Source of the DNA: Selaginella tamariscina
Lineage: Eukaryota > Streptophyta > Lycopodiopsida > Selaginellales > Selaginellaceae
Assembly (NCBI GenBank): GCA_003024785.1
Contig: PUQB01000146.1
Span: forward strand, 365,799 to 429,798
DNA: 64,000 nt
Direction: 5' to 3'
Shown here: positions 12,791 through 64,000 of the stretch, in pieces
How the letters are laid out: every line of letters begins with the position of its first letter
Numbering within the stretch: position 1 is the stretch's first letter
Translations under genes and position numbers: made by a program
The notes under the pieces: generated by a model
Told to the model about the DNA's origin: nothing
The model's input: the letters and a program-made list of their open reading frames with translations, nothing else
Databases searched by the model: none

Positions 12791-12793
12791 ACC

Positions 12794-12811
12794 ATCCCTC
12801 CATGGTTGCCA
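12794..12811 (-). other. Primer-binding site of inner element
   Basis: Two bases inside the 5' LTR the minus strand reads TGGCAACCATGGAGGGAT. It begins with TGG, as a site for a tRNA 3' CCA must, but it is not the common initiator-Met type. The outer element (15267-15284) and the GC-rich element (45747-45762) have the related TGGCGACCACGG and TGGCAACCACGATGGG. The tRNA is not identified. Confidence 0.6.
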
Positions 12812-12813
12812 TA

Positions 12814-13421
12814 TGTTGAACCATAAAATCCTACCCTCTGCACATAAGTAAGATTGCCTTTGATAAACCCGTATTAAGGGTTTACCGTAATAAGATAGAG
12901 AAGAAATCAGACATCAGAAGGTTGGAAAAGAGTAAGGATGGCAAGGTGTATAGTAGGCAACAGTACTATGGATCCTGTCACAGTATTGGAAATAAGATTA
13001 GTATACCACAAATCAGAAATATGAGTAAGAAAGAGACGTATTGAGAGAGGAAGGAAACTTATATTATGTCCGCGCACGCACATAGTACAAAATAACAGTA
13101 TACTTGGGATGCCCTTCTAGTCCTAATCTGGTCTATTTATAACTATACTCTAGGTCCCGTACTAGCAATTATCGCAACTGCCTCTCAACCTTATCCATTC
13201 AATTACTGTAACTCCTTCTTATCCTTATTCAAACATACCGTACTCCGCTTGTATCGTATTGCGGTGATGACTCGTATTGCGGTATTGCGTTAGTAACTCG
13301 TACTCCGATATATCCTTTCCACTCTCTGTTTTCCACAATATATATTGTTTTTAATATTTTTCCATTATATTGCCCATGAAATAACAAGAAATTCTATCAA
13401 TGTCTAACTATGATCCTAACA
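12814..13421 (-). repeat. 5' LTR of inner Gypsy element
   Basis: 608 bp, TGTTGAACC to CCTAACA. It has a TATA-like box (TATAAATAGA on the minus strand) at about 13131-13140. It is immediately followed by the TACTC duplication. Confidence 0.95.
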
Positions 13422-13426
13422 TACTC
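13422..13426. repeat. Target-site duplication TACTC, right copy
   Basis: This is the partner of 4217-4221. Outer gag resumes right after it. Confidence 0.9.
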
Positions 13427-15240
13427 GTTTAGCCTGTGTTATTGCATATGTTTCTGTTGAGGGTAATTCCGTATCTTCTTCCCATTTGCATTTGAGATGT
13501 TACTCTTCACGGTCATCCTTTTGATCATCTTCTTGTTGGACTTCAATCCTTCGTGTTGTTGGTTCTATGGATGGTGCTCTTGTGTTAAATTCGCGTTATG
13601 GACACTCCGTTGAATAATGTCCCATCCCTCCACACGTGTAGCATCGAACATTGTTGAGTCTATTACATTCAGTGGAATAATGTCCTTTCTCTCCGCATCT
13701 AAAACATGTCACATTTGGATTCGGACCACGTAATGCTGGTGGAGGCGGTATTGGTGGCAATAAAGGTGGTCCGACTTGTGCTGGGGCTAGTAATAGAGAT
13801 TGTCCTCCTCGCAGTATCTCTGTATTATTGCTTTGTCGGTAAAACGCCCCTGGTTTGTAGGGAAATCTCCTTCCATTGCCGTTTCTTCATTCCCCGTTAT
13901 ATGGTCTTTGTGGATAGTCGTATGGGTTGGTATTCCGAGATTGTGAATAGTCATATGGGTTCGTATTCCTCATGTTGTCCCATGGTGGTGGTGGGTAACC
14001 TTCAATGCGTCCAATCATTGGTTGGGGTTTATATCCCATACTTTGGCATTGCCTTGCTTCATGACCTATTCCTCACACATTTGACACTTGGGTACTTTAC
14101 ATTTAGAAGCATTATGTTCTTCATTCTTACATGTTGTACAAAATATTTCTTTGGATCTCACATGTATCTCGTTCTCCTTCTGGTGTTGCCTTATTGATTC
14201 TCATTCATCATCGTCTATGTATCTTGGTGGTATCAGTATTTCAATTTGCTCAGCCTCTTTTATTGCATCTCTTAAGTCATGTGGTTTTATCAATCATACT
14301 TGAAGTTGTAAGTTGTCCTGTAGTCCGTTGATATATCATTTCCTTACCAATTTATCACTGACGTCTCCCACCTTGCAGTGATTGTGTATCCTCCAAAATC
14401 TACACATGAGTCTTCCATTGCCTTCGTAGAACCTTGCCATAATTCATGTAGCTAGAGACTGTTGGATCTCATTTGTGATACTTTCATACATAGTAGTTCC
14501 TAAATAGTGCAAGTAGTGTGTTGTACTTATCAATTGTGATGGCATTCTCATAATACCAATCACTAGCATCTCCCTTCAGTGTAAATAGGAATATTCATAG
14601 CTTCTCGTTTTCATCCGTAATTTCATTAGCTTCACATGCCTTCTCAAATTGCTGAATATGGTGATTTGTATCCTCGTTCTCCAAGCCTAAAAAGGTAGAT
14701 GGTACTACTTTTCTCATAATTGTTAATGTTCCCATCTTCTCAAGTGTTTCAATTGTCAACAAATCTCAGTATTCTCGCGTTGGTACGTGTTTTCCGTTGT
14801 CGTAGTTTTGTTGGTTGATGTCCTCTTCCTCAGTAACCCCATCGTACTTGTCTACTATTGCTCTTCTCTTCGTGCTTTGGATTGCTCCTTCCTCCTCTGT
14901 TCGTCACGTTCCTCCAACCTTTTTTGAATCTCAATTACTGCTTGTCGTCGTAAGTATCGCTCCTTGCACTCTCATTGTTGTCTCTTACTTATCTCTTCAT
15001 ATTGTTGACGTTCTGCAAGAATACACTGGTAATCATCTATTCACTTACTACTAGATGCAACAGATCCATTCTCATGCTGTCTTTGTTGGGCGTTCTTCCG
15101 TCTCTGCGATAGTTGTGTATTAAGTACTCGCTTCGAAGTCTATGGAAAGCTTCAAATTTCTTCTTCTGCCCTAATTTCTCTTTAAACTCCAACACTTCTT
15201 TGAGTATCAGTCTACCCATCTTGGTACATCCTATAGACAC
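13427..15240 (-). pseudogene. gag of outer Gypsy element
   Basis: The N-terminus (15037-15240, MGRLILKEVLEFKEKLGQKK) is helix-rich and charged. The capsid and zinc-knuckle parts are readable in several frames from about 14700 to 13500 and align with 10991-12790. There are many stops, which fits its greater age. It is truncated at 13427 only because the inner element landed here; its remainder is at 4140-4221. Confidence 0.8.
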
Positions 15241-15266
15241 ATTGTTAGTTACCTACTAATACGACC

Positions 15267-15284
15267 ATCTGTCCGTGGTCGCCA
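15267..15284 (-). other. Primer-binding site of outer element
   Basis: The minus strand reads TGGCGACCACGGACAGAT, two bases inside the LTR. It is the same type as at 12794-12811. Confidence 0.55.
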
Positions 15285-15286
15285 TA

Positions 15287-15906
15287 TGTTGAACACATAT
15301 AATCCTAACACTAAATCGTAACAGTGGTCACCACTAACAATCCCATAATAAGGGACTATCGAAATAAGGGAACTGATATAGAAATCATGTCAAACTTCAG
15401 AAGGTCGGAAAAGGATAAGGATTGCAAGGTATGTAGCAGGTAGTAGTACTGCGGATCCATCACAGTACTAAGAAAAGAATAGTATACATCAAAGTAGAAA
15501 GACAAGCAAGAAATAACTATATTGAGAGTGAAAGGAAACTTATATTATGTCCGCACACAGTACATAGTACAAAATTATAGTATACTCAAGATGCTTTCTT
15601 AGTCCTAGTCTGGTCTATTTATACTTATACTCTTGGTCCCGTACTAGTAGTTATTATAACTTCTTCTTAGCCTTATCCATACAGTTACTGTAACTCCTTA
15701 TCCTTATCCTGATATTCTATACTCCGCCTCAAACATTGTATTGCGATAGTGAATCATTCGTATTATGATAGTGACTTGTACTTCTATATTTCCATCCGAC
15801 TTTTATTTTTCCATAATATATACTTTTTTTGTGTTTTTCCCATTATATGTGCCCATGAAATAAACATAACTAGGAATCTTCTACATGACTAATTACGATC
15901 CTAACA
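15287..15906 (-). repeat. 5' LTR of outer Gypsy element
   Basis: 620 bp, TGTTGAAC to CTAACA, clearly diverged from the two inner LTRs but alignable throughout. A TATA-like box (TATAAATAGA, minus) lies near 15624-15633. Confidence 0.9.
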
Positions 15907-18697: not shown

Positions 18698-18717
18698 GTT
18701 ATAACTAAAATGGGCAT
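18698..18717 (+). repeat. Left terminal inverted repeat of large transposon
   Basis: GTTATAACTAAAATGGGCAT. The second family copy begins GTTGTAACTAAAGTGGGCAT at 58360, and homology to it starts here and not further left. Confidence 0.75.
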
Positions 18718-20769
18718 AATACATGAAATTGAGAATATAAAATAAATTACTAATTAATACTTAAGTTTTAATTATTAATTAGTTATTTAATAAATATATA
18801 ATTAAGCCTTAAGTATTAATTAATTAACAAATTAATCCTTCATTAACCTTACTTAGTAAGGAATATTCTTAAAATATTTTAGAATATTCGTATTATTCTT
18901 TATTGAATATTTTACAATAATTAATAAATACTATCACACATAATTACAAATGAAATCATTTCCTTATCAACCTGTTAATTTATTTATGAATACTTTCTCC
19001 TTAATTATATAGAGAAAACTCCTCATTTTATTTAAGTCATCACTCTCTGGATTAATCAAATCATTTTGGTCAATATCTTTATGTTGTTGCCACCACCTAA
19101 CACTCTCATGAATGCAATTAGAAGTTGCCATGCTTGTTAATACATAAATTATAATAAGAACAGGAATGCATAAAGGCTTATTTAAAAAATGACATTCCTT
19201 AATAACTGGCAATATTGTAGTGCCAAGTTGCTCTCTTTTAATTTAAAAAATTTAGAATCACGAAAAAGAAAAGCGTCAGGGTATGTTTGATATAACAGAT
19301 ATTGCTCACAAAATTTTTTAAAATTCTTCTTTCTGAAGCACTTCCAAGTAGTTCATTAACTCATCCATGGTATTGATATCAAAATATGAGTTGAAAGTGA
19401 TTGGATGAATACAAGTAATGTTTTGGTTGAGTATAGCCTTTTAAGGAGAGTCATCTAGCACTAAGATATGTGCGTTTTCATTATCCTTAACTGATTGATC
19501 TTTTAATGAAGCCCAATTAATCTTTCATTCTTGAAGAAGTATGGCTTGCTTTCCTTTCTTATATTGTAAAATTCAAGAGGTTTATAACATATTCGCTGGT
19601 CAAAAATCCAATCTTTACAAATCACCTCTTTTGCAACACTACAATGTTTGTTAAGTAAATTCAACAGCAGTGTCAAGTTGTGAATCTACATGCCTGACCA
19701 AATCCCCACAAGTGCACCCATCTCCTTAAGCTTTTGAAAGAGACGGTCTAACCTAGAATGAAAATGTCAAAATTTACCATAACAACAAATGAAATCCCCT
19801 TATTTGATTTCTTTTTCTCTATCCTCTCGCCTTTGTTAATGAAGCAAAACACCATTGACATCCAACAACACAATATAACCATGAGTAACAAGGGGTAGCG
19901 TTGCCTCTTGAATGCTTTGCAACTCACTTGTTTGGTCCCTTTTACATTTATCTTTTGACGCTATATTGTTGCCGATCCCTTTATCATTTACTTGTACATC
20001 ATCCTTACAAGATTCAAATATTGCAAGCGCTAAAAGGCAATAGAAATGGTGATGTAGAAACTGAAGTGGTCCCCATAATAAGGATGTTTTGAGCTGCATT
20101 ATTATCCATTTCCTACATGAACTCTGTCATTTTCACATGTGACACAAAATTTTTTTGCCAAACCCCTCTTTTACCTCATGCCACTACTAAAAATCCAAGT
20201 TCTTTAACTGTTTCATTACATCTGCAAAATGATATTTACCTGGCCTTATAATTAGCAAGGTATATTATTTACCTTGTTAATGTGTGACCCATGTTTAAAC
20301 TAAAAGCTTCTTTAATCCTTGAGAATTTATTTTCTATACAAATATAAACGAAATATACAAAAATGCTTTATGTTACACTCATTTACAATTATTCATCACT
20401 TTAACAATTCATTAACAATTTTTCTTTGTTGTTACCTTTTGAGTGAGGCGAAAATGGTTTTAGCCGCTTAAAAGATCGTTCAACATTTCTCATTTCTTCT
20501 GTTGATGTTTCCATGATCAATGGAGTAAGTGAATGTTCTGTACTCCTTCAGATAACTTATGGTCTAATATTTAGTTCAAGATCATTCTTAGACTCCGACA
20601 TTGAACCAGATTCCTTCTCAGAACTATCACACCTCTTGAGAGAGAACTTTCCCAAATACTCCTATATGGGTTTGTTGAGTTAGTTGAGAACCTCTTTATC
20701 CACTTGTTCAAGTACTCAACCATGGTCTTATCCTTTTCAATGGCAAACATACATGAGGTAACACTCCTT

Positions 20770-20830
20770 CAAGATGAATCCTCTAGTGCAGTAGTCAAAA
20801 ATCCATGCATCAATGTGAGGACCCCTGATC
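20770..20830 (-). other. Methyltransferase motif I-like site in left cargo gene
   Basis: The minus strand reads DAWIFDYCTRGFILKECYL, then EKDKTMVE after a small deletion. This is the D-x-[FY]-x-x-G-[ST] glycine loop followed by the acidic residue that binds S-adenosylmethionine in permuted N6/N4 DNA methyltransferases (PF01555-type). The right copy at about 60400-60480 is less damaged. Confidence 0.5.
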
Positions 20831-22016
20831 AAGTTGAGGATGCTCCGTGCAGCCTAACTTGTAATGTTTGGATAACATAAATTGCCGAATACGTCCCTCT
20901 CAGCTATCATGTATCGGATGGAGGTTCAGGCCCATTGGAGTGAAAACAAATGCTTGGCTAGCCATTTGGAAGTTTGAAATTGTTTGGCGCATTCCTAACA
21001 AACCAAGTGAACAACCATATCAATACACTTGGGATCAACATCGTTCATATAAAATCCAGTCTAATGATGTCTATTCTTTTTTGTGAAGATGAAGGCAAAA
21101 GTATCGGTGACATGAGCTAGAATCAAGAAATAAATATCTGAAAACGTAGGTATCAATTAAATGTGCAAAAATTCAATAATAAATATTTTCTCTTACATGC
21201 TTGCACGGCTAAGTTTCTCCACCAAATCCTCTAGTGCCTTTTCTAATGAAGGATTGTTTGACACCCGCCAATCCATCACGAACATTTGAAACGGTTTCCT
21301 GCAAGCTGTTACCCCATAAAGTCTCTAAATCCAATAAAAAAACATCTGTAAGGCTTGTCATGATTTGTAGCATCCTCCTTTATAAGGTTTAACTCGGTTC
21401 TTTACTGCTGAAGGACTACCATATGAGAAGGTGTCATCGCAATGTTCTCCTTTCTGGCATTAGCATGCAATAGATTTTTGCCCAGATCTTCCGATTTGTT
21501 CACCCATTGGATAAGCATATCATCATTTGTCACATGCAGATATTTGCTAACTTTGTATGTTGAAGCTAATTTCCAACCCAGTTTATGATAGTGTATTCCC
21601 AACCACTCCTTAAAGTGTCTGATCATCTTCATCTCCATTGCCTTGAGATGAAAAGAAAAGGTGGGGCTATTGTTATTAATTTGTAGTTTCCATCAACCAC
21701 CAAATCAACTAAGACATCCATCTCCTCCATTGTTGTTCTGTTCAAAGGCTTCAACCATGTGAGTTTGAAGTCGTTGTCTACATTTTTTGCAGATTGAACA
21801 GACTTAGCTTTCGCCATCTTACTGGGTTCTTTTACAAACTTCTCCGAGGGCTCCATTTGTTTGCTTCTTCTTCAGTGTTCCTTTTCCAAACAATTCCATA
21901 ATCCCCACCCATTTGGCAAAGACCTTATCCTCGAGGCAAGAAATCAACATCATCAAAATAGATATTTCCTTCCCATCTACCTGGGCAAAATCAGCTGTTG
22001 CAATTTCTTCAGCTCT

Positions 22017-22083
22017 CTAAAGATTAAAAAAGAGACATATTAATATGCTGGCGAGATAAATCCCGCCAAGACAATTTACTTAC
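22017..22083 (-). other. Intron of left cargo gene carrying the palindromic core
   Basis: A 67-bp GT-AG intron (GTAAGT donor, TTTTTTAATCTTTAG acceptor) contains GGCGAGATAAATCCCGCC at 22050-22067. This is the same palindromic core that makes up the arrays at 23951-24716 and 27633-28536. The right copy has the same intron and motif at 62326-62343. Confidence 0.75.
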
Positions 22084-23460
22084 CTGGTATTCCGCACTTT
22101 GTTTTCTCTCTGCAATAGCTCTTTATGGTCACCCAAGATTTTCCCACATGGATCGCGTGTGTTTGAACTTCTCCCATATTTTGCTGTTGTAGTGGTTGGT
22201 GTCGGTAGCATCCCATTCCATTAATAACTTATGGTACTACTCGATTGTGAGATTCAGATTAGCTAAAAATGCCAATTCTTTTGTCAGCTTCTCATGGGTA
22301 TGCTTGAAAGTTTTATTACCATCTTTCCTTTATTGTGTTCATCAAGAAGTCATTGGGATGCCGTTATTATGTGTTAGCCACTAATAACGTAATACTTGAT
22401 TAATTTTTTATTCTTCGTTTAGATCTTTGTGATTTGTTCTGGTGTTGTCACCCACACTATCTTAGTGCCTTTCTTTCTTTCATAGTATGGGCACAAAACA
22501 GCATTATGTGGAACGGTATAAAAATTGTTGTTCATATGCTCAGCTACACGTTCCTGGTTGAGTAGCATGTAATTGAAGTTGGGGTTAATGCTACAATACT
22601 TAACTCTGCACTCGTAAATCCTATCATCCAGCATCATTTCCTTGTGGCTTATTGCAGTATGGGATGCCATAGGTGTAGCTAACAAAACGATAAATGATTT
22701 TTTTCTACGATCTAAATTAACATGTATGAGCCTCGACTGCAGCTGTTCTAATGTTCTTGCCAGCTTCCAAAGATTCTTAAGCAAATTGAACATGATCTGT
22801 AAAGAACCTGGGATTGAGCCACCTTATGAATCTCCCTAATGATGTTGTTGTGTTCTTCTTTAATAAGAAGAGGCTTCACTTGTGAATGTTCTATATTGTG
22901 AAGCAATATATGCTGCAAATACACCTACTTAACGAGTATTGAGATCCTCGAAGTAAATATTTAATTTGATCCCCTCCATATATGGGCTTTTGTTTAGTTG
23001 AAGAAGAACTCCATGGTAAACATCATTAGTGAACACATAAATGTCATAATCTATAAGCCAACATAACCACCCGAGGTTCTTATTGTATCTCCGATCCTTT
23101 GGATTCGAGAACGTAACATTGGATGGAACAAGGTATATATTTCGAGCATTGTCCAATCTCGATTCATAGCCTGCCCTTGGGTGCTTGACTAGTGAATCTA
23201 CTTTCCATTGTTTTGCTTGTTCATGCGATGTAACAAAGGTTAGTTTAACAACAACTATGGTTGATCCAATGCGCTTCTCATTTATTTTAAAATATAAACA
23301 TGTTGATTCTAGAATCCCCTACCCATCTCATCTCCTACTGTTATCTTCAGTGTCACCTCAATTCCACATCTGAATACAAAAATGATAAGTTCTTCAAACA
23401 CATATCCGAGTATAACATATTTTATTTTAATTCTTACCCAAAATTTAATGACAACTTCAT

Positions 23461-23669
23461 ACTAATGATTAAATTTCCTTATTTGATCAATTTGTCTTTT
23501 TGTACAATAATACACTATGAATACAATTCATAAAAACACACACACACTCGTATAAACCTAAATATACAAATACACTATTAAAACTTTACAGAGTCTATAC
23601 ATGTTTTTCTCTGAAGTGTTCAGACTATTTAAATAGCGAGAAATTATAATATACAAACAAACATGTGCT

Positions 23670-23706
<37 letters not shown>

Positions 23707-23950
23707 TTGGTAAATTCACATACACCCTTCTTTGTTTCGGAGAGAAGTGGACGAGATTAAGTGTCCAAAGTTCACATTTGTAATAGTGCAAAAAACTAGT
23801 ATCATTTGGTTTTAGAACCACCACAAATGTGAGTTTTATACAATTTTATATGGTTTACTAGCTTTTATTCAAAATATTATTATAAGATTATAGAAGTAAA
23901 TAAAAGGAAATAAAGAATTTATATACTAATACACATGTACATTCACATAA
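23461..23950. promoter_or_regulatory. Upstream region of cargo gene
   Basis: This AT-rich sequence upstream of the ATG at 23460 includes a (TA)n run at about 23673-23700. It is conserved in the second copy up to the window end (63764-64000 aligns with 23461-23826). A promoter is likely by position only; no box was identified. Confidence 0.35.
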
Positions 23951-24716
23951 AGTGTGGGGCAAGATTAATCCCTCCACCTTTTTCCATTTCACAGAGAAGT
24001 GGACAGGATTGATCTCGCCTACCATTTTAGGAGGCAGTGGCGGGATTAATCCCACCACCACTTTCATGATTCCTAAAATGATGGGTGAGATGAATCCCAT
24101 AAGATGGAAAAGGGTGATAGGATTAATCCCATCCCACACTCTTTAAGACATAAAGAGTGGTGGGATTAATCCCGCCACCCCTTCCATACATGGTGAGAGG
24201 GATTAATCCTGCCACCCTTTATGTCTTAAAGAATGTCGGGCTTAATCCCACCCACCACCTTTATCCATATGAGAGAGTTGTGGGCAGAATTAATCCCGCC
24301 ACCCCTTCCATGCCTGATGGTCGGGATTAATCCTGTCCACAACTCTCTCATATGGATAAGGATGGTGGGCGAGATTAAGCCCACCCCACATTCTTTAAGA
24401 CATAAAGGGTGGCGAAATTAATCCCGCCCTCCAGGCATGGTATGGGTGGCGGGATTAATCCCACCACCCTTTAAGCATGACATGGGTGGTGCAATTAATC
24501 CATGCAAGGCATGGGTGGCATGATTAATCCCCCCACCCTTTAGGTAGAGCATGAGTGGTGGGATTAATCCCGCCACCCTTTAGGTAGGGCATGGGTGGGG
24601 GATTAATCATGCCACCCTTTAGGCAGGGCATGGGTGGTTGGATTAATCCCGCCACCCTTTAGGCAGGTCGTGGGTGGCGAGATTAATCCTGCTGCCCTTT
24701 GATTAATCCCGCACAT
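23951..24716. repeat. Palindromic array I (GGCGGGATTAATCCCGCC cores)
   Basis: About twenty near-palindromic cores, consensus GGYGGGATTAATCCCRCC, are spaced irregularly at the left and every 40 bp or so at 24500-24700. Spacers themselves form inverted repeats (for example CCCTTTATGTCTTAAAGAAT and its complement). The second transposon copy enters the same type of sequence at 63920-63945 (GACGGGATTAACTATCC). The array lies 490 bp upstream of the cargo gene start. Confidence 0.9.
24211..24413. repeat. Long imperfect palindrome inside array I
   Basis: The left arm from 24211 (GCCACCCTTTATGTCTTAAA) pairs with the right arm ending at 24413 (TTTAAGACATAAAGGGTGGC), and pairing continues inward through GAGAGAGTTGTGGGC and GCCCACAACTCTCTC-type sequence to about 24300/24320. 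Arms are near 90 bp with a short centre, so it could form a hairpin or cruciform. Confidence 0.8.
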
Positions 24717-24720
24717 TGGG

Positions 24721-25125
24721 CAAATGCGCGCGCACACACACACACATATACATATATATATGTGTGTGTATGTATATGTATATACATGAGTGTGCGAGAG
24801 ATAAATAAAAAAAATTAAATTATACAGAGACACACTCGTATATGTGTGTGTGTGGTGTGTGTGTGTATCGTGTGTGTGTGTGTGTATGTGTATATGTATA
24901 TCGTGTGTGTGCATGTGTGAGCTAAATAAATAAAATTATACAGATACACACACACATATATATATATGTATGTATATGTATATATATAGGAGTGTGAGAG
25001 AAATAAATAAATAAATTTATTATAGATACACACACATAAATGTATATATAAATATAGACAAATAAATAAATTATCTATCACACACAGAAATATATGTATA
25101 TGTATACATAGGAGTGTGCATGTGA
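24721..25125. repeat. CA/TG/TA microsatellite tract
   Basis: These are alternating (CA)n, (TG)n and (TA)n runs with interspersed AAATAAATAAA words. ORFs here are products of the simple repeats. Confidence 0.9.
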
Positions 25126-27632
25126 GAAAGAGATTTCATCTGTGTGAATGCACCTTCAAACCCTACTGCACCGCCACACCTTCTATGAAAAAGAGATTTA
25201 TTGATTTATTACACATTCCACCACCGCAACGTCTTTCACCTTGAAACCTAAGAATATACCTAAACCTTAAAAGGAATAAAAATAAATATTCTTTATTATA
25301 TTATCATAATCTTAAATTTGTGTGTGTCTGGGTGTGTGGTGTATCACATACACTCCAAAAATATAAAACATGCAGGGGTTTAACATATGTGTGTCTATGA
25401 GAGTGTTAAATTTTCACGTGCAGTAATACATACATACACACATATAATATACATATAAACATACGTACATAGTACATAATATTGTACACGTCAGTACATA
25501 TTATGGATCATGCATGGTATGTATATATGAGAGAGAGTGCTAAAAAAATAATTTCGCACACATTGCATACATTAGTATATACACACAGTGTCACACATGT
25601 ATACACATAAACATGTGTGAATTCAATGTGTTACATACACACAGACTGAGTACATATAAAACGTACATGCATTTAACATGATGTTTTAATTAAAGAAGCA
25701 ACATATCTTCCTAGTTTGGTTTAGGGTTTAAACCCAATGCAAGTATTTTATTAATAAATTTTAATGTCTGTATAAAAAATTTATTATTCATATACAAATA
25801 CACAAGAAAATATGCATAAAGAATTGTTGATAATCAAGTAGATAAACATAAAATCATAAATCATTCTATTAATTTGTCAATTATTTTAAAAACTTTATTT
25901 TTAAAAATGCAAATTATAATTTGCTCATATTTTAAAATTGTATGTATATATTTGAAATTTACTCAATTTTAACTTAAAATGACATAATGATATTAAAACA
26001 CATTTGAAAGCAATCCTAGCACATAATATATATATTAGTATAAAATCTTTATACTAATATAAATTAAATCCATGCACATTTTTTTAATTATTTAATATAA
26101 ATTTACTCTCAACACTAAACATAGATATATGGATGTTTTGTGTGTATATATGTAAGTCCTAGTATAGAGTATAAATGCTTGGTTTAGGGTTTAAACCCTA
26201 AACCCTACCCCTAAACATTTAATTATTTGTATCATAGTTAACTCATCGATGTGCATATGTGTCTTTGTAGGTGCTTTTAATGCATATTGTGGGATGCTTT
26301 TTAAGGGGTGTGTTGTGTGCATGTAAAAGTTTATAAATATTTCGTGTATTTATATGTAAGCCTCAGTGTAGAGTGTGTGTAACTATAACTGTTTGGTTTG
26401 GAATTTAAACCCTAAATTGTAAATACAAAACTAGATCCTAAACCCTTAAACATTTATTTATATCGTGATCCACTCATCGACTTGTGTATGTTGTGTGCAT
26501 GTGTCTTTGTAAGTGCTTATAATGCATGTGCACGTGTATATATAAATTTTTTATTGTGTTATATATGTGTGTAAAAGAAACATTGAATTAAAGTGAAAAT
26601 AATATTAATATACACATTATGAACATATTTTAAATTATACATAATAATATATCATTTATTTAATATAGTATATATAGTTTTAATAAAATATAATAATTTA
26701 ATATTGATAATAAAGTTTAACATTGGATTATTCTTGAAATATTAAGAAAATAATTGAGAAATCCCATTAATATAAACACATGTAGAATAATTACTCAAAT
26801 AATTAAGAATATATACTAATTTAATTAAGATAATTAGGTTTAATATTAGAATATTCTTGGAATAAAAAGAAAATAATAAAGAATATCCCATTAATATAAG
26901 AAATGAAGATTAATTACTTGAATAATTAAAACATAACATTAATATACACACTATGAATATATTTAAAATGATACATAATAAATTATCATTTTATCTTTGT
27001 ATAAGTATATATATTTATAATATATATTGGAATATTAAGAATGTAGAATAACTACTAAAATTTTGTAAAATTAAACAGCTTGAATCTATACATAATAATA
27101 TATCATTTTATTTAATATATAGTCATATATAGTTTTAATAATATATATTAATTTAATATTGATAATAAGGTTTAACATTGGAATATTCTTAAAATATTAA
27201 GAAATTAATTGAGAAAATCCCATTAATATAAACAAATGTTGAATAATTACTCAAATAATTAAGAATAATTACTAATTTAATTAAGATAATCAGGTTTAAT
27301 ATTGGAATATTCTTGGAATAAAAAATAATAATAAAGAATATCTCATTAAGATAAAGAAATGTAGATTAATTACTTGAATAATTAAGAAAACATATTAATA
27401 TACACACTATGAATATATTTAAAATGATACATAATAATATATCATTTTATCTATTGTATAAGTATATATATTTATAATATATATTGGAATATTAAGAATG
27501 TAAAATAATTACTAAATTTCGTAAAATTAAACAGCTTGAATCATTTGCTAATGTTAAATGTAATTTATAAAATCATTATAATGAGAGAGTATATATATAT
27601 TAATTCGGCTAATGCTTCTCCGCCTCTTAAAA
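25126..27632. repeat. AT-rich central region with tandem duplications
   Basis: No gene is visible. A duplication of roughly 215 bp is seen at about 26120-26345 and 26346-26560; each copy contains a TTTAAACCCTAAA-type word and a TCATCGA...GTGTCTTTGTA stretch. A second duplication with period about 455 bp is at about 26635-27089 and 27090-27545, with repeated GATAATAAxGTTTAACATTGG and GGAATATTCTTGGAATAAAA. Confidence 0.7.
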
Positions 27633-28536
27633 AGGGTGGCGGGATTAATCCCACCGACAACTCACTAAAACGATAAAGAGTTGGCAGAATTAGTTATGAG
27701 CGGAATTAATCCCACCCACCATTCTAGGAGGTAGGGAAGGGTGGCGGGATTAATCCCGCCACCCCTTCCCTATTTTAAAGAATTGTCACGCCAACCAGTT
27801 TAGGAGGTCGGAAAGCATTAGTGGGATTAATCCTAACACCCTTTGAGATCTCTCTGAAATCTTGGTTAGCTAAAAATTTTAATTAAAGAGGATATGTGAA
27901 CAGGATGAATCCATAATGGATTCTAGTGCAGTCCTAATGGATCTTAAACCCCTAAAGAAATTTCACCAAATGGCACATCATAACAAGCCAATATGTAATC
28001 ACACCCACCATTTTTAGAGGTGAATTAACCTTGCCAATGCTTTCTGTCTCCTAAATGGTGGACGGGATTAATCCCGCCCCCAATTCTAGGAGGTGAGAAA
28101 GCATTGGCGGGATTAATCCCGCCACTTCTTCCCTATTGGAGAGAGTTGTGGGCAGGATTAATCACGCTGATCTCTTCCTCGTTGTGAGGAAGTATTGGCA
28201 GGATTAATCACGCTGATCTCTTCCTCGTTGTGAGGAAGTATTGGCAGGATTAATCTCGCCAACCTCTTCCCCATCGAAAAAAAGCATTGCTGGGATTAAT
28301 CCCACCGACTCTTCCTCATTGGAGAGAGTTGTGGGCGAGATTAATCCCGCCGACTCTTCCTCGTCAAAGACAGTCACAGGTGGGATTAATCCTGCCGACT
28401 CTTCCTCGTCGGAGACAGTCGCAGGCGGGATTAATCCCGCCGACTCTTCCTCGTCAAAGAGAGTCATGGGTGGGATTAATCCCATCCACCATTCTATTAG
28501 GCGGGAAGGGTGGTGGGATTAATCCCGCCACCACTT
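27633..28536. repeat. Palindromic array II (GGCGGGATTAATCCCGCC cores)
   Basis: About sixteen cores are present. From about 28150 to 28500 the unit is regular at 45 bp, with the spacer GACTCTTCCTCGTC. The 45-bp period keeps both strands open, giving repeat-derived ORFs. It ends about 145 bp before the start codon of the transposase-like gene. Confidence 0.9.
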
Positions 28537-30576
28537 GTATTAATCAAGAATGATAATCTATACTTATACATAATATATATATTACACATACATATATATT
28601 ATGCACCCTCGATTCAAATTTTTTCGTATATTGCATAAATAGATATTATAAATGACACAATTATTTATGTGCAGGACAATATGTTTAATATTGAAGATAA
28701 AGTATATCTTCTTTGGAACAACGAGATAGTTAGCACTGGAACTATGGAAGTTCGAGATGAGAATGTATCATGTCATAATATTGCCCAAAGATCTTGTGTG
28801 TATGTATAGGTGAACACCATTTGCAAGCATGTTGAGGTTCCTAAAATGGAATTTGAAGAGGGTTCTCCTGTATTGTGGAATATGGATAAAGTCAAGGCTT
28901 ATACAGAGAATGCAGAGTCACAAAAAATAGTAGTACAAGTTTATTAGATGATGGCTTGCTTACTGTGATGAATGAGGTGATTCTCTTTCTTTATGAGATC
29001 GAGGTTGGGAAAGGCATCATCACAATTGTAAATCTAATGGAAGCCGTATCAGAAGAGAAACTAGGGGCCTACTTCGTGGGTGTAGTTGTGATGAAGTTTC
29101 ACCTAATGACACATTGCATCCTGGATCTCTCATGAGGTGGCAAACATTTGAATTTAGACGAGATGGTTCAACATATTCTGGGTTGGATTTCAATAATAAC
29201 AACCCGGAAGAACAACCATATTTGAAGAGGTTCCTTGCATTGGTCCTATAAAAAAAGGCGATTCATGTGTTGCAGATCTTCCCCTGCAAGTTCGGCAAGA
29301 GGGTAAGATGGATCCTACATCTTCGCCAAGTTGCTAGCATTTCCACGATTGACTGCTGCAAGAAGAAGTGTTGTCAGATGGCAACCGGAATGAAATTACC
29401 CAATGTAACATGTCTTTCGTATGCTCACCCAAAAGCAAAGGCATGAGTTTGTATATGCTGCACTAACTGGGTGTATTGATGGAATGGCCTGGACACAGGT
29501 TATAGAGTACATCCATGGTATTTAATAAGGTGGCCATCTGCTTCAAAGCTTGGTACAGTATATACGGGATCCCAAAGACCACGTTCTACCGTCGGAGATG
29601 AGTGGCTAGATGGACGCACCTCAGTACATGGGAACACTCTTGGTCAAAACCCGCTCTCACATCATGGCAGCCATAGAGATACTCAAGGCTTTTGTGGAAG
29701 CAAATGCAGACAGGATGCCTCACAAATGCCGAACCACAAATGCAGGGTCAGGGAAAATCTCAAGGTTTTGCCTTCAATCTACACTCAATTGAAGCTGTGT
29801 GAACATGTGAACAAGTGCCTCAGTTTGATGGGGCTGCAAGCAATCTGCACTGGTACCTTCAACAACATATGGAATACTCATTTTAAGGATGTGGAGATTG
29901 CAAAACACTCTAGCTTTTCCAAGTGTGACACTTGTACATCATTGAAGGCTGCAGAGGCTTGTGCAAAAACCTTGGTGGAGATCACTGCCATTCAAAAGAA
30001 GATGGAGGCCCACATGATTGACAAACTTGCCGTCTCAGTACTATGCGCATGCTTTTGTGTCACGCCCATCAGATACCTGTGCTTGATCCATGACAAGATG
30101 GATCATTCAAAGACCAGCATTCCAAAGCTCGTTGCAACACCAAAGTGCCTTGGAAATGTCATGAAACTTCCGATTTCATTGACAGGTGTGCTAACACATG
30201 GACACGGTTGTGAATCATATGGACACTTTTCACTTCCACATTGGTCTAGCGACTCCAATTTCACTATTGGGTCGTTGGCCATGTGTTTCAAAACCTTGAA
30301 GCCCACTCACAAACAAGTCCTATCAGTGATCTCAAAGTGAAGAAACAACACCTTCAACCTTTACATAATGCTCTCATGAAACATCTGCACTTGAGGCTAC
30401 TTGGGAATATGAGAGGCATTGTCAGCAGCTGCACAAAAAATAGATGGCCCTGTTGAGAGTTCTGGTTCAGTGGAGGGATCTAGCTCAAATAGTGTACATG
30501 TGTCCTCAACATCAAATAAGCTTCCTCGTCATTTGCTTTTACAGATGGATAATTGTGCAGGCGAGAAAAAAATAGG

Positions 30577-30629
30577 TAAATCATTTTACTTAAGGGTTTC
30601 TCAAGCTCATACTTACTTTTATTTTCTAG
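30577..30629 (+). other. Intron in transposase-like gene
   Basis: The GTAAAT donor follows the codons for the MDNCAGE-KKN stretch, and a pyrimidine-rich TTTTCTAG acceptor precedes YVLAYLSMLVAKGVF. Removing it restores the expected family sequence across the junction. The start may be one or two bases off. Confidence 0.7.
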
Positions 30630-31208
30630 ATATGTGCTAGCATACTTGTCAATGCTTGTTGCCAAAGGTGTGTTTGAGACAATCACGCTCAGTTTCCTTA
30701 TGGTTGGTCACACTCATGAAGATATTGATGCGTTCTTCAGCAAGGTCTCCAACTCTACAAAAAGGACAAGTGCACTTACCTTACCGCATATGATGATTTT
30801 TTGAAAATTGCATCTCCAAAAAAAGTTGTGCTTTGCTTGTGACTGAGGTGCCAGACTTAAAAAATTTCTCAAGGAGTATATAAAAAGGGAGAGATTCTTT
30901 ATTGGTCACCTTGTGCCACTATAATTCTTTTTCTCCATAAGAGATGGTATATCTATTATGTAGTACAAGTTATGCCATTAGAGCAAGAGTGGTTACTAAA
31001 AGAAGGCTTAATGCTCTTCAAAAGTGGAGAGGATGGAAAGCCACTTCTTCCAGAAGGACAATCAAACCCTATTCCATTGAGTGTCCAGTTCAAGGAACAA
31101 GAGCTTATTATTAATGGCATTAAAAAATATGTGACATGGGTTCAAAAATTAATGTTAAAGAATTTTAATAAGGCAACTGGTTACTCAGAACTATATAAGC
31201 ATATGGTC

Positions 31209-31372
31209 TGTCATAGTTTTAACCTAGTGGGTTGACTACTTAGGTAAAGATTGTGGGATATGTGGGTAAAAAGACTTAAGCGTAACTGAGTCATCATGAC
31301 CAAGGGTTCTCTCATAAACACCAATTGGCCCTTTGCCTAGTTGGCATAAGGGGAGAGGGAAAGGTTGTTACA
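31209..31372 (+). repeat. Left LTR of TRIM
   Basis: 164 bp, starting TGTCATAG and ending GTTGTTACA. It is repeated at 31781-31951 with small indels. Confidence 0.9.
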
Positions 31373-31373
31373 T

Positions 31374-31387
31374 TTGGTATCATAACG
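31374..31387 (+). other. Primer-binding site of TRIM (initiator Met type)
   Basis: TGGTATCATAACGG begins two bases after the LTR. It matches the start of the common plant TGGTATCAGAGC site with one change in the first nine bases. Confidence 0.7.
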
Positions 31388-31780
31388 GTCTCGGGTTTGA
31401 TTCTCATCAGGGGATGAACTTTGAGTAAAGTTCACACCACTAAGGTTGCACTTGTCCTTGCCTAACTAAACTCCTCGATCATATGTGTATAGCCAAGCGG
31501 CTTTGTGATCCTCTCTGGCCTGATTGACATGTGATGTGAGTACAGCCAAGTGGTCACACAATGTGGGTATTGCCTCTGAACTAGGCGTGACTAGAAATGC
31601 CTCTAGTTGCACCCATGAGTCAAGCTTAAGTAGAGCCAAGCGTGAGTAGAAACGCCTCTAGTTGCACCTTCTAGGAGGGAGGGCATGAGTAGAAATGCCT
31701 CTAGCTGCACCTTTTGAAGAAAGGCATAGTAGCATTGAGTCTATGGATGAGGACATCCACTTTCTGAAATGGGTATAGAG

Positions 31781-31951
31781 TGTGATAGTTCTAACCTGGT
31801 GGGTTGACTACCTAAGTAAAGATTGTGGAATATGTGGGATATGTAAGCAAAAAGACTCAAGCGTAACTAAGTCATCATGACTAGGGGCTCTCATAAACAC
31901 CAATTGGCCCTTTGCCTAGTTGGCATAAGGGAAGAGGGAAAGGTTGTGACA
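31781..31951 (+). repeat. Right LTR of TRIM
   Basis: 171 bp, TGTGATAG to GTTGTGACA, followed by the TGGTC duplication. Confidence 0.9.
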
Positions 31952-32402
31952 TGGTCGACTATTGGGAGATTGTTGTTTGAGAGTTAGAAGGGTCTATTAT
32001 CACAAGTACATAATTACAAAACCCTTTTTGGTTTAAAACAAGGTGGCAGAAGGAGATTGAAATGACATCAATGAGCACAGACGACATAAAAGTCAGTAGT
32101 GATGTGGAAATGCAAACCCCACACTTTGTTAGACAAAGGAACCAAAAACCTAAACCATACTTTGATTTCTGCAAGGATCTTCAAAAACTAATGATCATCC
32201 TCATTACTCCAGATGTATCATATAATCAACCTATTTAGATGGGTCAAATTATCGACACACCTAAAGTTATCACAAAAAATAATATAGTAAAGGTTGTATG
32301 GTTCAAACCACAAAAAGACGACATGAAAAAGATAGCAAAAGATATAATGGATGCTTAGAGAAAACATGGTCTCCCAATCAAAAAGACCCAACATATTTTA
32401 TA

Positions 32403-33015
32403 AATGTTAAATCTATTTAATATGGGTGAATGTCAAAAAACGTTGATAAAGTCATGATTAACAAAACTGCAAGAAAATGTATGTTTTCTTAAGCTTAAAA
32501 CAATTACAAAATTATAAAATATAGTATATTTAATATAAATAGTTATGAAAAACTCTTTAATAATAATACCAAATTGTTTACTTAACTATATATTTGTAAA
32601 AAGATATGGAAGATTGACTATATAGGATTTTGTATATTATATATATATTATTACTAGTATAAATTTTAATTAATGTTATATTTAAATATTAATATTTTAA
32701 TAACAACATAAATATTTATATAATGTACCTCTCATATAATTTTTATATTAAGCCCATACAATCTTAAATATAATATATTATATAACTTAATACCTTCTAC
32801 TTTTATAATGTTATTAATTTTTGGTCCATCAATGTTATAATTTATTAAAGGGTTAATTATAAAAATATAATGTTCTAAAAAATATTTTGCCTTCAAACAT
32901 ATATTTTAAAGAATTTTTTTTTAAACATTATTATTTTAAAGAATATTTCTTTAATATTAGAAAATGCTAATTAAATAACTAAAATTGCTAATTATTAAGA
33001 AATAGAATTATAAAC
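32403..33015. other. AT-rich subterminal region of large transposon
   Basis: No gene is visible. It is very AT-rich, with TTAGTTATTTAAT- and GAATATTCTT-type words shared in inverted orientation with the left subterminal region (18720-18910). Confidence 0.5.
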
Positions 33016-33035
33016 ATTCCCATTTTAGTTATAGC
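33016..33035 (-). repeat. Right terminal inverted repeat of large transposon
   Basis: The minus strand reads GCTATAACTAAAATGGGAAT, matching the left end at 18 of 20 positions. Confidence 0.65.
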
Positions 33036-39525: not shown

Positions 39526-39778
39526 CTACAAATCATCATTATCTTCAACCTCACAATCTTCGACATTGTCTCCATCTTCCTCTTTCTTTCCTGACTCAAA
39601 CTTGTCTTTCAAATGAGGAATTTTTCTCTAGTACTTTGTAGCTCAGAAACTTGTCGCAGTCATGGTCATTTTTGCAGGTTAACAACTTACTATTGCAAGC
39701 CACAAAAACCAAATTTGTTGTCATGTCCATAGTAAGTCTGTTCCTCTTCTTTGAAGATACATGTTCGAAAGTGCTAAA
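39526..39778 (-). pseudogene. hAT-like gene, C-terminal segment 3
   Basis: Minus-strand text STFEHVSSKKRNRLTMDM and NLVFVACNSKLL is the end of the hAT C-terminal dimerisation domain. It follows directly on ERLF at 46450 once the element 39779-46444 and one CTAAA copy are removed. After a frame shift it ends in an acidic tail (EDGDNVEDCEVEDNDDL) with a stop at 39526-39528. Confidence 0.85.
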
Positions 39779-40459: not shown

Positions 40460-40488
40460 GATGCCCGGGCTTGTTCGTTGGCACGTCC

Positions 40489-45762: not shown

Positions 45763-45766
45763 CAAA

Positions 45767-58359: not shown

Positions 58360-58739
58360 GTTGTAACTAAAGTGGGCATGTTACGTGAAAATGGGAATAT
58401 AAAATAAATTACTAATTAATACTTAAGTTTTAAGTATTAATTAATTATTTAATTAATATGTAATTAAGCCTTAAATATTAATTAATTAATAAATTAATCC
58501 TTCAATAACCTTACTTAGTAAGGAATATTCCTAAAATATCTTAGAGTATTCATATTATTCTTCATTCTAAAAATAGTTTACAATAATTCTATCAAACTGA
58601 ATTACAAACGAAATCATTTCCTTATCAACATGTTAATTTTTTTTAAATACTTTCTTACTATACAAAGAAATCTCTTCATTTTGTCTAAATCATCACTCTC
58701 TAGATTAATCGAATCATTTTGGTCAATATCTTGATATTA

Positions 58740-59877
58740 TTACCACCACCTAACACTCTCACGAATGCAATTGGGAGTTGCCATCCTTATTAATACATAA
58801 GATGTAATGAGACCTGGTCTGCATAAAGGCTCATCTAAAAAATGACGTTCTTTAAGAATAATATTGTAAAGCGCCCAATTGCTATCCTTCATTTTATAAA
58901 ACTCAAAATCAAGAAAAAAAAAACCTTTAGGAAATGTTTGATATGGTGGATACTGCTCATAAAAGTTTTTGAGATTCTTCTTTCTGAGGCACGTATCCAA
59001 GTAGTTCACTAGCTCATCCATGGTATCGGTATTAGAATATGGGTCGAAAGTGATTGGATGAATACAAGCAATGTTTTGGTTGAGCATAGCCTTCTGAGGA
59101 GAGTCATCTACCACTAAGATATGTACGTTCTTCATTATCCTTAAGTGACTAATCTCCCCATGAAGGCCAATTAATCTTTCATTCTTGAAGAAGTATGGCT
59201 TGCTTTCCTTTCTTATATTGTGAAATTCGAGAGGTTTATAACATACTCGTTGGTCAAAAATCCAATTTTTACGAATAACCTCTTCTACAACACTACAATG
59301 TTTTTTAAGCAAATTCAGTAACGGTGTCAAGTTATGAATTTGCATGCATGACCAAATCCCCACAAGCACATCCATCTCCTTAAGCTTTTGAAAGAGACGG
59401 TTCAACCCTAGACGAAAAATAATATTATATCAAAATTTACCATGACAAGGAATGAAATCTCCTTGTTTGATTTCTTTTTTCCTATCCTCGGGCCTTTGTC
59501 GATGAAGCAAAACACCATTGACATCTAACAACACAATATGGCTATGGGTAACATGGGGTAGCGTTGTCTCTTGAATACTTTGCAACTCACTTGTTTGGTC
59601 CCTTTCACATTTATTTGTTGACACTATATTGTTACCTATCCTTTATCATTTAATTGTACATCATCCTTACAAGAAAGTGATTTCGAACTAAAGCCAATAG
59701 AAATGGTGATGAAAAAACTAAAGTGGTCCCCATGGTAACGATGTTTGAGCTGCATTATTATCCTTTTCCTGCATGAACTCTGTCATTCTGACATGTGGCA
59801 CAAGAAATTTTTTGCCAAACCCCTCTGTTACCTCATGGCAATGCTGAAAATTCCATGTTCTAACTGTTTCATTACAT
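58740..59877 (-). other. FCP1/NIF-like HAD phosphatase domain in right cargo gene
   Basis: The open frame 59430-59624 and the open frame 58740-59405 (221 codons) are the same frame, separated by one TGA. HAD motif I is VLLDVNGVLL: nucleophile Asp present, second Asp replaced by Asn as in many plant NIF-like proteins. Then come FRLGLNRLF, LVGIWSCMQ (motif II region) and VVDDSPQKAMLN (motif III, Asp-Asp). Domain length is normal. Carboxy-terminal-domain phosphatases of this fold dephosphorylate phospho-Ser; activity here is not established. Confidence 0.8.
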
Positions 59878-60394
59878 CTGCAAAATGATAGTTAGCTGAC
59901 CTTATAATTATCGAGGTATATTATTTACCTTGTTAATGTGTGACCCATGTTTGAACTAAAAGCTTCATTAATCCTTGAGAATTTATTTTCTGTACAAATA
60001 TAAACGAAATATACAAAAATGCCTTATGTTACACTTATTTACAACTATTTGTCACTCTAAGAACTCATTAACAATTCTTTTTCGCTATTACCTTTTGAGT
60101 GAGGCAAAGAAGGTCTAAACCGCTTGGTAAATCGTTCATGATCTTTTGTATCTTTTGTTGATGTTTCCATAGGTAATGGAGTATGTGAATGTTCTGTACT
60201 CCTCGAGATAACTTTTGGTCTAATATCTGATTGACGTTCGTCCTCAGACTGACATTGAACTAGATTCGTCTTCAGAGCTATCGCACTTCTCAAGAGGGAA
60301 CTTTCCAAATACTCCTGTATGGTTTGGGGTAGTCAATTGAGAACCTCTCTATCCATTTATTTAGGTCCTCAACCATGGTCTTATCCTTTTCAAC

Positions 60395-60490
60395 AGCAAA
60401 CACACATGTATTAAGAAGGTAACACTCCTTCAAGACAGACCCCCTAGTGTAGTAGTCAAAAACCCATGCATCACTGTGAGGACCCCTGAT
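60395..60490 (-). other. Permuted methyltransferase motif X-I region in right cargo gene
   Basis: The minus strand of 60290-60622 reads RYPNITSQAAWSIVNLIRG, then WVFDYYTRGSVLKECYLL and AVEKDKTMVEDLN. This has the layout of the C-terminal end of permuted N6/N4 methyltransferases: an anchor helix, a D-x-[FY]-x-x-G-[ST] loop and an acidic residue 16-18 positions on. No DPPY/SPPY box was seen upstream; LLLDSETLWGN stands at about the right distance. Confidence 0.55.
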
Positions 60491-61641
60491 CAAGTTGACG
60501 ATGCTCCATGCCGCTTGACTTGTGATGTTTGGATAACGTACATTGCCGAATACATCCCTCTCAGCTACCGTTGTATCAGATGGAGGTTCAGGCCAATTGG
60601 AGTGCAAACAGATGCTGGCCAATCATTTGAAAGTTTGAAATTGTTTGGCACATTCCTAACAACCAAGTGAACAACCGTATCAATGCACTTTGGATCAGCA
60701 TCATTCATATAAAATCCTGTCCAACGATGTTTATTCTTCTTGGCGAAGGTGAAGGCAAAAGTATCGATGACATGAGCAAGAATCAAGAAATAAATACCTG
60801 AAAACATAGGTATCAGTAAAGAGTGCAAGCATGAATTCAATAATAAATACCTTCTTTGTACATGCTTACACGGCTAAGTTTCTCCACCAAATCCTCTAGT
60901 GTCCTATTTGTTGAAGGATTTTTTGACACCCGCCGATCCATCACGAACAATTGAAACAGTTTCCTATAAGCAGTGATGTTACCCCATAAAGTCTCCGAAT
61001 CCAATAACAAACATATGTAGGACTTGTCGTGATTCGTAGCATCCTCCTTTATAAGGTTCAATTCGGTTCTCCGTTGCTGAAGGACTGCCATAAGAGAAGG
61101 TGTCATCGCAATGTTCTCCTTTTTTTGCATTGGCGTGCAATAGATTCTTGCCCAGATCTTTCGATTGATTCACCCATTTGACAAGCATATCATCGTTTGT
61201 CACATGCAAATATTTACTGACCTCTTCGTATGTTGAAGCCAAGGTCCAATCCAGTTTGTGTAGTGTATTCCAACCACTCTTTGAAATGCTTGACCGTCTT
61301 CAACTCCATTGCCTTAACATGAAAAGGAGAGGTGGGGCTATTGTTGCTAATTTGTAGTTTGCCATCAATTGCCAAATCAGCCAAGACTTCCATCTCCTTC
61401 ATTGTTGTTCCATTTAAAAGCTTCAACTATGTGAGCTTGAAATCATTGTCTACATCCTTTGTAGATTGAACAGACTTAGCCTTCGGCGTCTTACTAGGTT
61501 TCTTTGCAGACTTTTCTGACGGCTCCTCTTCACTTGTCTACTTCTTCTTCAATGTTTCTTTTGAAAAGGATTCCATAATCCCCAACCATTTTGCAAAGAT
61601 CCTATCCTCAGGACAAGAGATTTACATCATCAAAAAGGATG

Positions 61642-62240
61642 TATTAACACGTAATTTCCTACCCTCCGTACATCGATAGGATTGACGTTGATAAACCCAT
61701 ACTAAGGGTCTACCGGTTTGAGTTAAGGACATAATTAGACATCAAAAAGTCAGGAAAAGGGTAAGGATGGCAAGGTGTATAGCAGGTAGTAGTATTATGG
61801 ATCCCGTCATAGTACTAGAATATAAGAACAGTATACTACATCACAGAAATATGAGTAAGAGATAGACGTATTGAGAGAGAAAAGAAACTTATATTATGTC
61901 TGCTCACGGCACATGGTACAAAATAACAGTATACTCGGGATGCCCTTCTAGTCCTAATCTGGTCTATTTATACCCATACTCTAGATCCCGTATTAGTAAT
62001 TATCACAACTACCTCCTAGCCTTATCCATTCAGTTACTGTAACTTTATCCATACATGCCGTACTCCGCTGACATCGTATTGCGGTGACACCCCGTATTGC
62101 GGTGGTGCATCAGTAACTCGTACTCCGATATTTCTTTCCACTCTCGATTTTCCACAATATATATTGTTTTTGATATTTTCCCATTATATTGCCCATGAAA
62201 TAACAAGAAATTCTACTAATGTCTAATTATGCTCCTAACA
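61642..62240 (-). repeat. Solo LTR of the 4222-13421 Gypsy family
   Basis: 599 bp, TATTAACACG...CCTAACA, alignable to 4222-4830 and 12814-13421 throughout, with the TATA-like box near 61963-61972. It is flanked by GGATG (61637-61641) and TGATG (62241-62245), a target duplication with one change. The left transposon copy has the empty site near 21975 (AAAATAGATATTTCC). It cuts exon 3 of the cargo gene. Confidence 0.9.
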
Positions 62241-62296
62241 TGATGTTTCCTTCCGCCCATCTGGGCAAAATCAACGGCTACAATTTCTTCAACTCT

Positions 62297-62359
62297 CTAA
62301 AAAAAAAGAGATAGATTAATATACCGGCGAGATAAATCCCGCCCAGACAAATTACTTAC
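62297..62359 (-). other. Intron of right cargo gene carrying the palindromic core
   Basis: A 63-bp GT-AG intron contains GGCGAGATAAATCCCGCC at 62326-62343, identical to the motif in the left copy at 22050-22067. Confidence 0.75.
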
Positions 62360-64000
62360 CCGGTACATCGCACATTGTGTATTCCCTATAGTAGCCCTTT
62401 ATGGTCACTGAAGAAATTCCCACACGACTCGCATATGTTTGAACTTCTCCCATATTTTGCTGTTGTAGTGGTTGGTGTCGGCAGAGTCCTATTCTGCCGA
62501 TAACTTGTGGTACTGCTTGATTGTGAGATTTGGCTTAGCTAAAAATGCTGATCTTTTTGTCAGTTTCTCACGGGTATGCTTGAAAAGTTTTGTTGTCATT
62601 GTTCCTTTGTTGTGTTCATCAAGAAGTCATTGGGCTGCCGTTATTGTGTGCTGGCCATTAATGATGTAGTAATTAATTGATTTTCTATTCTCCGTCTGAA
62701 TCTTCATGATTTGTTCTGGTGTTGTGATCCACACTTTGTCAGCGCCTTTGTTTCTTTTGTAGTATGAGCACAAATAGCATTATATGGAACGGTGTAAGAA
62801 TTGTTGTTCTTCATCTTCTCCATGAGCTCAGCTACACGTTCCTGGTTGAGTGGCCTGTAATTAAAGTTTGGGCTGACGCTGCAATACTTAACCCTACAGT
62901 CATAAATCTTATCATCCCAACATCTTTTTTGTGGCTTATTGCAGCATGGGATGCCACATGTGCAACTGACAAAACGACTAATGATTTTCTTCTACGATTT
63001 GAATCAACATGTGTTATCCTTGATTGATGCTATTCTAATGTTCTCGGCAGACTCTTCCAGCTCCCGAAGTTTTCTAAGCAAATTGAACGTGACTTGTAAA
63101 GAATCTGAGACCAAGCCACCCTCTCAATCTCCCTTATGATGTCGTTGTGTTCTTCTTTAATGTGAAGAGGGATGATTGCTCCACTTGTGGATGTTCTGTA
63201 TTGTGAAGTAACTCTGCTGAGAATACACCTACTCAATGAGTCTGAAGATCTTCGAAGTAGACATCTAATTGGATCCCCTCCATATATGGGCTTTCGTTGA
63301 ATTGAAGAAGAACTCCATGGTCAACATCATTAGTGAACACGTGAACATCATTATTCACAAGTCGACAAGACCACCCGAGATTAATGTTGTAACTGGCGAC
63401 CTCTGGATCCGAGAACGTGACATTGGATGGAACAAGGCATATGTGTCGAGCATCGTTCAATCTGGGTTCGCAGCATGCTTTCGGATGCTTCACTAGCACA
63501 TCCACTTTCCTTGTTTTGCTTGGCCATGCGATGTGATAGAGGTTAGTTTAACAGCAGCCATGGTTGTCCCAATGCGCTTCCCGTTTAGTTTGAAATATGG
63601 CCAAATTGATTTCAGAATCCCCCTGCCCATCTCTTCTCCTGCTCTCGTCTTCAATGTCACCTCAATCCCATAACTGAATACAAAAATGATTAGTTTTCAA
63701 GCACATATCCAAATATAACAGATTTTATTTTAATTCTTACCCAGAATTTAACGACGACTCCATACTAATGACTGAATCTCCTTGTTTGATTAAATCGTTC
63801 TTCTACAAAATAATACACTATGAATACAAATCATATAAAAATGCACACACACTTGTATAAACCCGAATATACAAAATTAATACACTGATAAATTCACACC
63901 CTGCTTTGTCTCAGAGAGAAGTGGACGGGATTAACTATCCAAAGCTCATGTTTGTGATAGTGCAAAAGACAGATAACATTTGGTTTTAGAACCACCACAA

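Follow-up and report, generated by a model that had tools for sequence, protein, structure and literature searches.

The window analysed here, a 64-kb stretch of contig PUQB01000146.1, contains a giant DNA transposon that was once complete and has since decayed, designated copy A (positions 18698-33035 of the window, 14.3 kb), together with the left part of a second copy, copy B. Copy A is bounded by short terminal inverted repeats (TIRs), between which lie two broken genes on opposite strands: a right gene for a DUF7869 protein and a left gene for an accessory protein with an FCP1/NIF-like domain. A single palindrome, GCGGGATTAATCCCGC, is clustered upstream of both genes. We consider it fairly probable that copy A represents a Sola-1-type transposon, in which a DUF7869 transposase was accompanied by an accessory protein uniting ParB-, methyltransferase- and NIF-like parts, and in which the palindromes were bound at both promoters. 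If so, the DUF7869 protein would have acted as a DDD transposase on the short inverted ends, while the left gene would have encoded a ParB plus DNA-methyltransferase-type protein ending in the FCP1/NIF-like domain. Either the accessory protein or the transposase would have bound the palindromes just upstream of the two genes, and this binding would have regulated the two promoters of the element or marked them chemically, probably keeping them open against host silencing.

Ends and copies of the element

The first and last 20 bases of copy A match at 18 of 20 positions in inverted orientation, as the original prediction from this DNA had claimed. With up to three mismatches allowed, the end pattern was found at only three places in the window, namely both ends of copy A and the start of copy B, against 0.01 expected. 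At up to two mismatches, the right end had a single match in its orientation, and 40 simulated windows gave no place at this threshold and four at up to four mismatches. The second copy, predicted to begin at 58360, was recovered as well: in the alignment of the two copies, homology begins at 18695 in A and 58357 in B, with identities of 84%, 80% and 82% in three pieces reaching position 64000. Copy B is truncated by the end of the window, at the point equivalent to position 23826 of A. All genes seen in the two copies are broken. The idea of a TIR transposon with divergent genes thus holds for one complete copy, whereas the methyltransferase cargo ascribed to it does not emerge from the sequence.

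We noticed TATA near both ends of copy A (18700-18703 and 33030-33033), while the left end of copy B has TGTA. As TATA is its own reverse complement, it may either stem from a 4-bp target duplication or belong to the inverted repeat itself. In the former case, the left TIR may shrink to 18704-18717.

The right gene

The right gene reads toward the right end and is of the predicted DUF7869 type, as PF25273 was detected by Pfam in two of its frames (E = 1.3e-19 and 5.7e-10). A search of 5.8 billion proteins provided five relatives among 730 candidates, 642-1144 amino acids in length and 41-63% identical. In tblastn with P0004 as the query, 29315-30634 (E 4e-51) and 30625-31229 (E 1e-30) were aligned, along with weaker segments at 31951-32244 (E 4e-4) and 28687-28893 (E 0.009). 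The gene is disrupted by frameshifts, stops and a small long terminal repeat (LTR) element at 31209-31951.

Candidate catalytic acids in HDKMDQ, LDNC and GHTHEDIDA are invariant in all five relatives, and copy A retains them as HDKMDH, MDNC and GHTHEDIDA. One of the five relatives also showed a sub-threshold match to TNP1/EN/SPM (E = 0.023). We take the DUF7869 protein to be a probable DDD transposase that would have acted on the short inverted ends, and DUF7869 to be a putative member of Sola. Of 211 pattern matches in viral contigs and 48 in prokaryote contigs, none was confirmed as a relative.

The left gene

The alignment of copies A and B gives a largely consistent minus-strand reading of the left gene, albeit with many frameshifts. 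From its start, an unassigned N-terminal part, a ParB-like part, a methyltransferase-like part and a NIF-like part follow one another. For most of the frames that were read, stops were much rarer in-frame than off-frame; in the ParB part, for instance, four (A) and three (B) were found in-frame versus 18-24 and 12-20 off-frame. The gene had been described as ParB/methyltransferase/FCP1-like, a description that stands for the FCP1/NIF part, receives modest support for ParB and finds no profile for methyltransferase.

The NIF/FCP1-like domain (PF03031) was detected in copy B with an E value of 1.9e-9, and in copy A with one of 0.2 over approximately 19327-19512. NIF domains are common in eukaryotic host proteins, and their usual nucleophile motif in the NIF/FCP1 type is DxD. 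Both copies have DVNG at the usual nucleophile position, the second aspartate being replaced. A literature search for ParB with FCP1 or NIF found no such fusion in the titles and abstract openings covered.

The ParB-like identity is modestly supported by PHROG 1033 (ParB-like partition protein), which matched the two-copy consensus with an E value of 0.0016. Pfam DUF6551 gave E values of 0.05 and 0.03 on the left gene, short of the cutoff of that family, and no ParB match was found among the Pfam profiles.

Amino-methyltransferase domains are marked by motifs I and IV. A motif-I-like pattern, which was composed after the stretch had been seen, matches just two homologous places in the six frames of the window, one in each copy. 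The methyltransferase part is proposed from this stretch together with the published algal parallel discussed below. Searches of solved structures gave nothing meaningful, and the phage tblastn matches (one with E 2 and two with E 9) are not meaningful either. No homologue of the left-gene protein was scored among 3583 and 6671 candidates, which is weak evidence, as the length filter excludes short fragments.

Palindrome clusters and loss of CpG

The palindromic arrays predicted between the two gene starts were recovered as 29 sites in two clusters. At up to three mismatches, the window contains 31 sites of the palindrome against 0.08 expected, and all 31 fall within copies A and B: 29 form the two clusters of copy A, which lie upstream of the two genes, and the remaining two are a homologous pair, one in the left gene of A and one in that of B. 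At up to four mismatches, 24 of the 30 spacings within the clusters are 37-48 bases and the remainder 20-241. Parts of the clusters repeat in tandem, the unit being 40 bp in one array and 45 bp in the other, and the palindrome is common to both units. Across the 32 cluster sites at this threshold, ATTAAT is nearly invariant. A protein encoded by the element itself might bind this palindrome. An exact 21-base palindrome was not found in viral contigs (0 matches).

Substitutions within the palindrome are concentrated at its four CpG positions, where 37 of 128 letters are changed, 31 of them as C-to-T or G-to-A; at the non-CpG positions, 27 of 384 letters are changed and 15 of these are transitions. 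These 31 changes at the CpG positions are of the kind expected from the decay of methylated CpG. The observed/expected ratio of CpG is 0.44 in copy A and 0.63 in copy B, and this depletion suggests that the element was probably methylated by the host, though two other regions of the window, with ratios of 0.54 and 0.70, show that the surroundings are CpG-depleted too.

Comparison with known transposons

By layout, we judge Sola1-1_Ec32 of the brown alga Ectocarpus to be the nearest match. In this 21.5-kb element, the gene for a 1104-amino-acid protein with ParB and N4-methylcytosine/N6-methyladenine (4mC/6mA) methyltransferase parts runs opposite to that of the transposase; comparable proteins have been cited from transposons of green and red algae (PMC12477816). 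The likeness, which is one of layout, comprises a giant TIR transposon and an opposite-strand accessory gene with putative ParB-like and methyltransferase-like parts; provided that DUF7869 is taken as the transposase, the left gene runs opposite to it as the Ectocarpus gene does to its own. Because Sola1-1_Ec32 carries a ParB-like and methyltransferase gene in this position, a ParB-type accessory gene opposite a transposase is a layout already known, and the gene set, which had been regarded as undescribed, has a published counterpart. On the other hand, copy A differs in its size (14.3 versus 21.5 kb), in its unconfirmed methyltransferase part, in the NIF/FCP1-like C-terminus of its left-gene product and in its palindrome clusters, the last two being features that the excerpts consulted do not mention for Sola1-1_Ec32. 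The NIF domain and the promoter-side palindrome clusters may be new, the literature not having been searched for the latter.

Sola elements have a DDD transposase, 4-bp target site duplications and TIRs of at least 11 bp, are mostly 2-9 kb but in some cases larger than 15 kb, and are present in moss (PMC10741241). Copy A, at 14.3 kb and with ends matching at 18 of 20 positions, falls within these ranges of size and TIR; it also shows a DDD-type pattern and may have a 4-bp TATA duplication. Copy A is most likely of the Sola-1 type, with DUF7869 as a putative Sola transposase.

Fungal KDZ transposons with TET/JBP genes had been proposed as the nearest parallel, and Sola1-1_Ec32 is nearer. TET/JBP dioxygenases are carried by KDZ elements of fungi and by other transposons, which resemble copy A as DNA transposons with a gene possibly acting on DNA marks, but the transposase and the enzyme differ, and the Dileera example gives 8-bp target duplications (PMC12730594). 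We rejected this candidate, as neither domain was found when the regions of the broken genes were scanned with Pfam. CACTA/EnSpm was also rejected, since the ends of copy A read TATAACTAAAATGGG and not CACTA/CACTG.

Weighing of the explanations

The following observations count against a Sola-1-type transposon with a ParB, methyltransferase and NIF accessory protein. The complete copy is a single one in the window, and two structure predictions from five-sequence alignments were uninformative (mean predicted local distance difference test scores, 34 and 31). Substitutions between the copies at the first, second and third codon positions (27, 17 and 37 in the N-terminal part; 39, 39 and 48 in ParB; 26, 25 and 43 in the middle; 18, 14 and 23 in the motif-I part) do not make selection on the putative left gene clear. 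On the same consensus as PHROG 1033, unrelated families score close to ParB (PHROG 21535, E = 0.0093; PHROG 29454, E = 0.015; NF045969, E = 0.012), which slightly reduces our confidence. For the methyltransferase part, no support came from Pfam, PHROGs or NCBIfam profiles, solved structures or phage proteins, and no match came from the protein homologue searches. Motif IV ([DNS]PP[YFW]) is absent from the left gene of both broken copies, and the looser match SLPWG occurs in copy B only, distant from the expected position. The sequence of the NIF part has no match among solved phosphatases (seven matches to solved structures, the best of which, with an E value of 0.14, is a kinase inhibitor). 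Finally, identity between the two clusters is 0.80 in the palindrome core and 0.35-0.39 in the flanks, a difference inflated by the picking of the sites by core match itself.

Possible, though on the unlikely side, is that the transposon is the same and the left protein is a DNA-binding helper like TnpA or VANC, which would bind the palindromes and lift silencing or aid excision without methyltransferase activity. This would agree with the lack of both a methyltransferase profile and motif IV, and there are precedents for it: in VANDAL elements, VANC proteins bind noncoding tandem repeats that contain short motifs, and DNA methylation is lost as a result; the activation of Spm by TnpA accompanies demethylation (PMC10398659); and the helpers of CACTA elements bind motifs repeated in subterminal regions (PMC2613891). 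Copy A shares with these systems short motifs clustered in noncoding parts and possibly bound by an element-encoded protein. Nevertheless, the proteins differ, in copy A the motif is palindromic, spans 16 bp and sits next to the start of each gene, and the motifs of Spm lie in subterminal arrays, which those of copy A do not. In addition, a ParB part followed by a stretch like motif I is an order in keeping with the ParB-methyltransferase proteins already published (PMC12477816), and the motif-I-like pattern, though post hoc, is limited to two homologous places.

In the Ectocarpus study, proteins combining ParB and methyltransferase parts were proposed to bind the transposon that encodes them and to mark it, and no target site is named in the excerpts consulted (PMC12477816); 4mC is also on record for rotifers (PMC8885841). 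Copy A offers a candidate target, one palindrome with 32 sites (up to four mismatches) beside both gene starts, and with such a target visible the self-marking idea becomes directly testable. Should the host be a land plant, modules of ParB and methyltransferase would reach beyond algae. Bacterial ParB loads on clustered 16-bp palindromes. It is conceivable, but doubtful, that the palindrome is recognised by the ParB, methyltransferase and NIF protein of the element itself. This protein would load on both promoters and mark them with a base outside the standard set, such as 4mC or 6mA, while its phosphatase-like domain would act on the transcription machinery, the whole being a module for self-recognition and self-marking borrowed from prokaryotes.

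We consider it improbable that two unrelated elements, a left one with ParB/NIF and a right one with DUF7869, are nested or adjacent and were paired by chance. Both genes are seen together in copy A only, the window cutting copy B short of both the palindrome cluster and the right gene; however, the opposite-strand layout is published in Ectocarpus (PMC12477816) and the matching ends enclose both genes. The clustering of one palindrome beside both genes, together with its occurrence within both copies of the left gene, also argues for one element. Equally improbable is that the left gene is a captured host gene fragment (Pack-type) and the palindromes a plain tandem repeat without a role: NIF is a common host domain, the clusters are partly tandem repeats and selection between the copies is not clear, but A and B both carry the left gene and share their left end, the palindrome is common to two arrays of different unit, and the algal parallel exists (PMC12477816).

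Table 1. Coordinates of the features of copies A and B in the window
Feature	Position	Strand	Evidence or remark
Left TIR of A	18698..18717	+	18/20 match to right end; A/B homology from 18695
Right TIR of A	33016..33035	-	0.01 places expected at up to 3 mismatches
Left gene of A, broken (frameshifts, stops, apparent introns)	~18970..23390	-	Two-copy alignment, frame reading
NIF/FCP1-like part of A	~19080..19970	-	PF03031 E = 0.2; homology to B
NIF/FCP1-like part of B	58743..59642	-	PF03031 E = 1.9e-9
Methyltransferase motif-I-like stretch, weak	A 20690..20802, B ~60350-60463	-	Pattern match without profile match
Single palindrome, 2 mismatches, in apparent left-gene intron (read by eye)	22051..22066	.	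B homologue 62327-62342
ParB-like part of A	~22333..22640	-	PHROG 1033 E = 0.0016 on two-copy consensus
Palindrome cluster 1, upstream of left gene	23959..24712	.	17 GCGGGATTAATCCCGC sites, up to 4 mismatches
Tandem duplication in AT-rich spacer between clusters	26636..27542	.	Period 456, 2 copies
Palindrome cluster 2, upstream of right gene	27639..28528	.	15 GCGGGATTAATCCCGC sites, up to 4 mismatches
Right gene of A, DUF7869, broken	~28677..32417	+	PF25273; tblastn with P0004
Small LTR element (TRIM-like) in right gene	31209..31951	.	~170-bp terminal direct repeats, TGGTC both sides
Copy B, left part only	58360..64000	.	84/80/82% identity to A
Probable solo LTR inserted in copy B	~61637..62241	.	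75-84% match to repeats at 4237, 12829 and 15394

Insertions and neighbouring repeats

The small LTR element in the right gene resembles a terminal-repeat retrotransposon in miniature (TRIM) and contains a sequence that we take to resemble a Met-tRNA primer site. Outside the two copies, 1-15906 holds a number of repeat pieces that are related but diverged (74-93% identity) and are probably LTR elements; a sub-threshold reverse transcriptase match was seen there at 2210-2698. A likely LTR retrotransposon spans 39776-46442, with repeats at 39776-40457 and 45764-46442 (92% identity) and a Retrotrans_gag match at 43073-44512 (E = 1.8e-12), and the stretch at 41826-42181 forms an inverted repeat with itself (92.7% identity). 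A 3.2-kb tandem duplication at 47275-53984 is 98.8% identical and includes arrays of ~110-bp tandem repeats.

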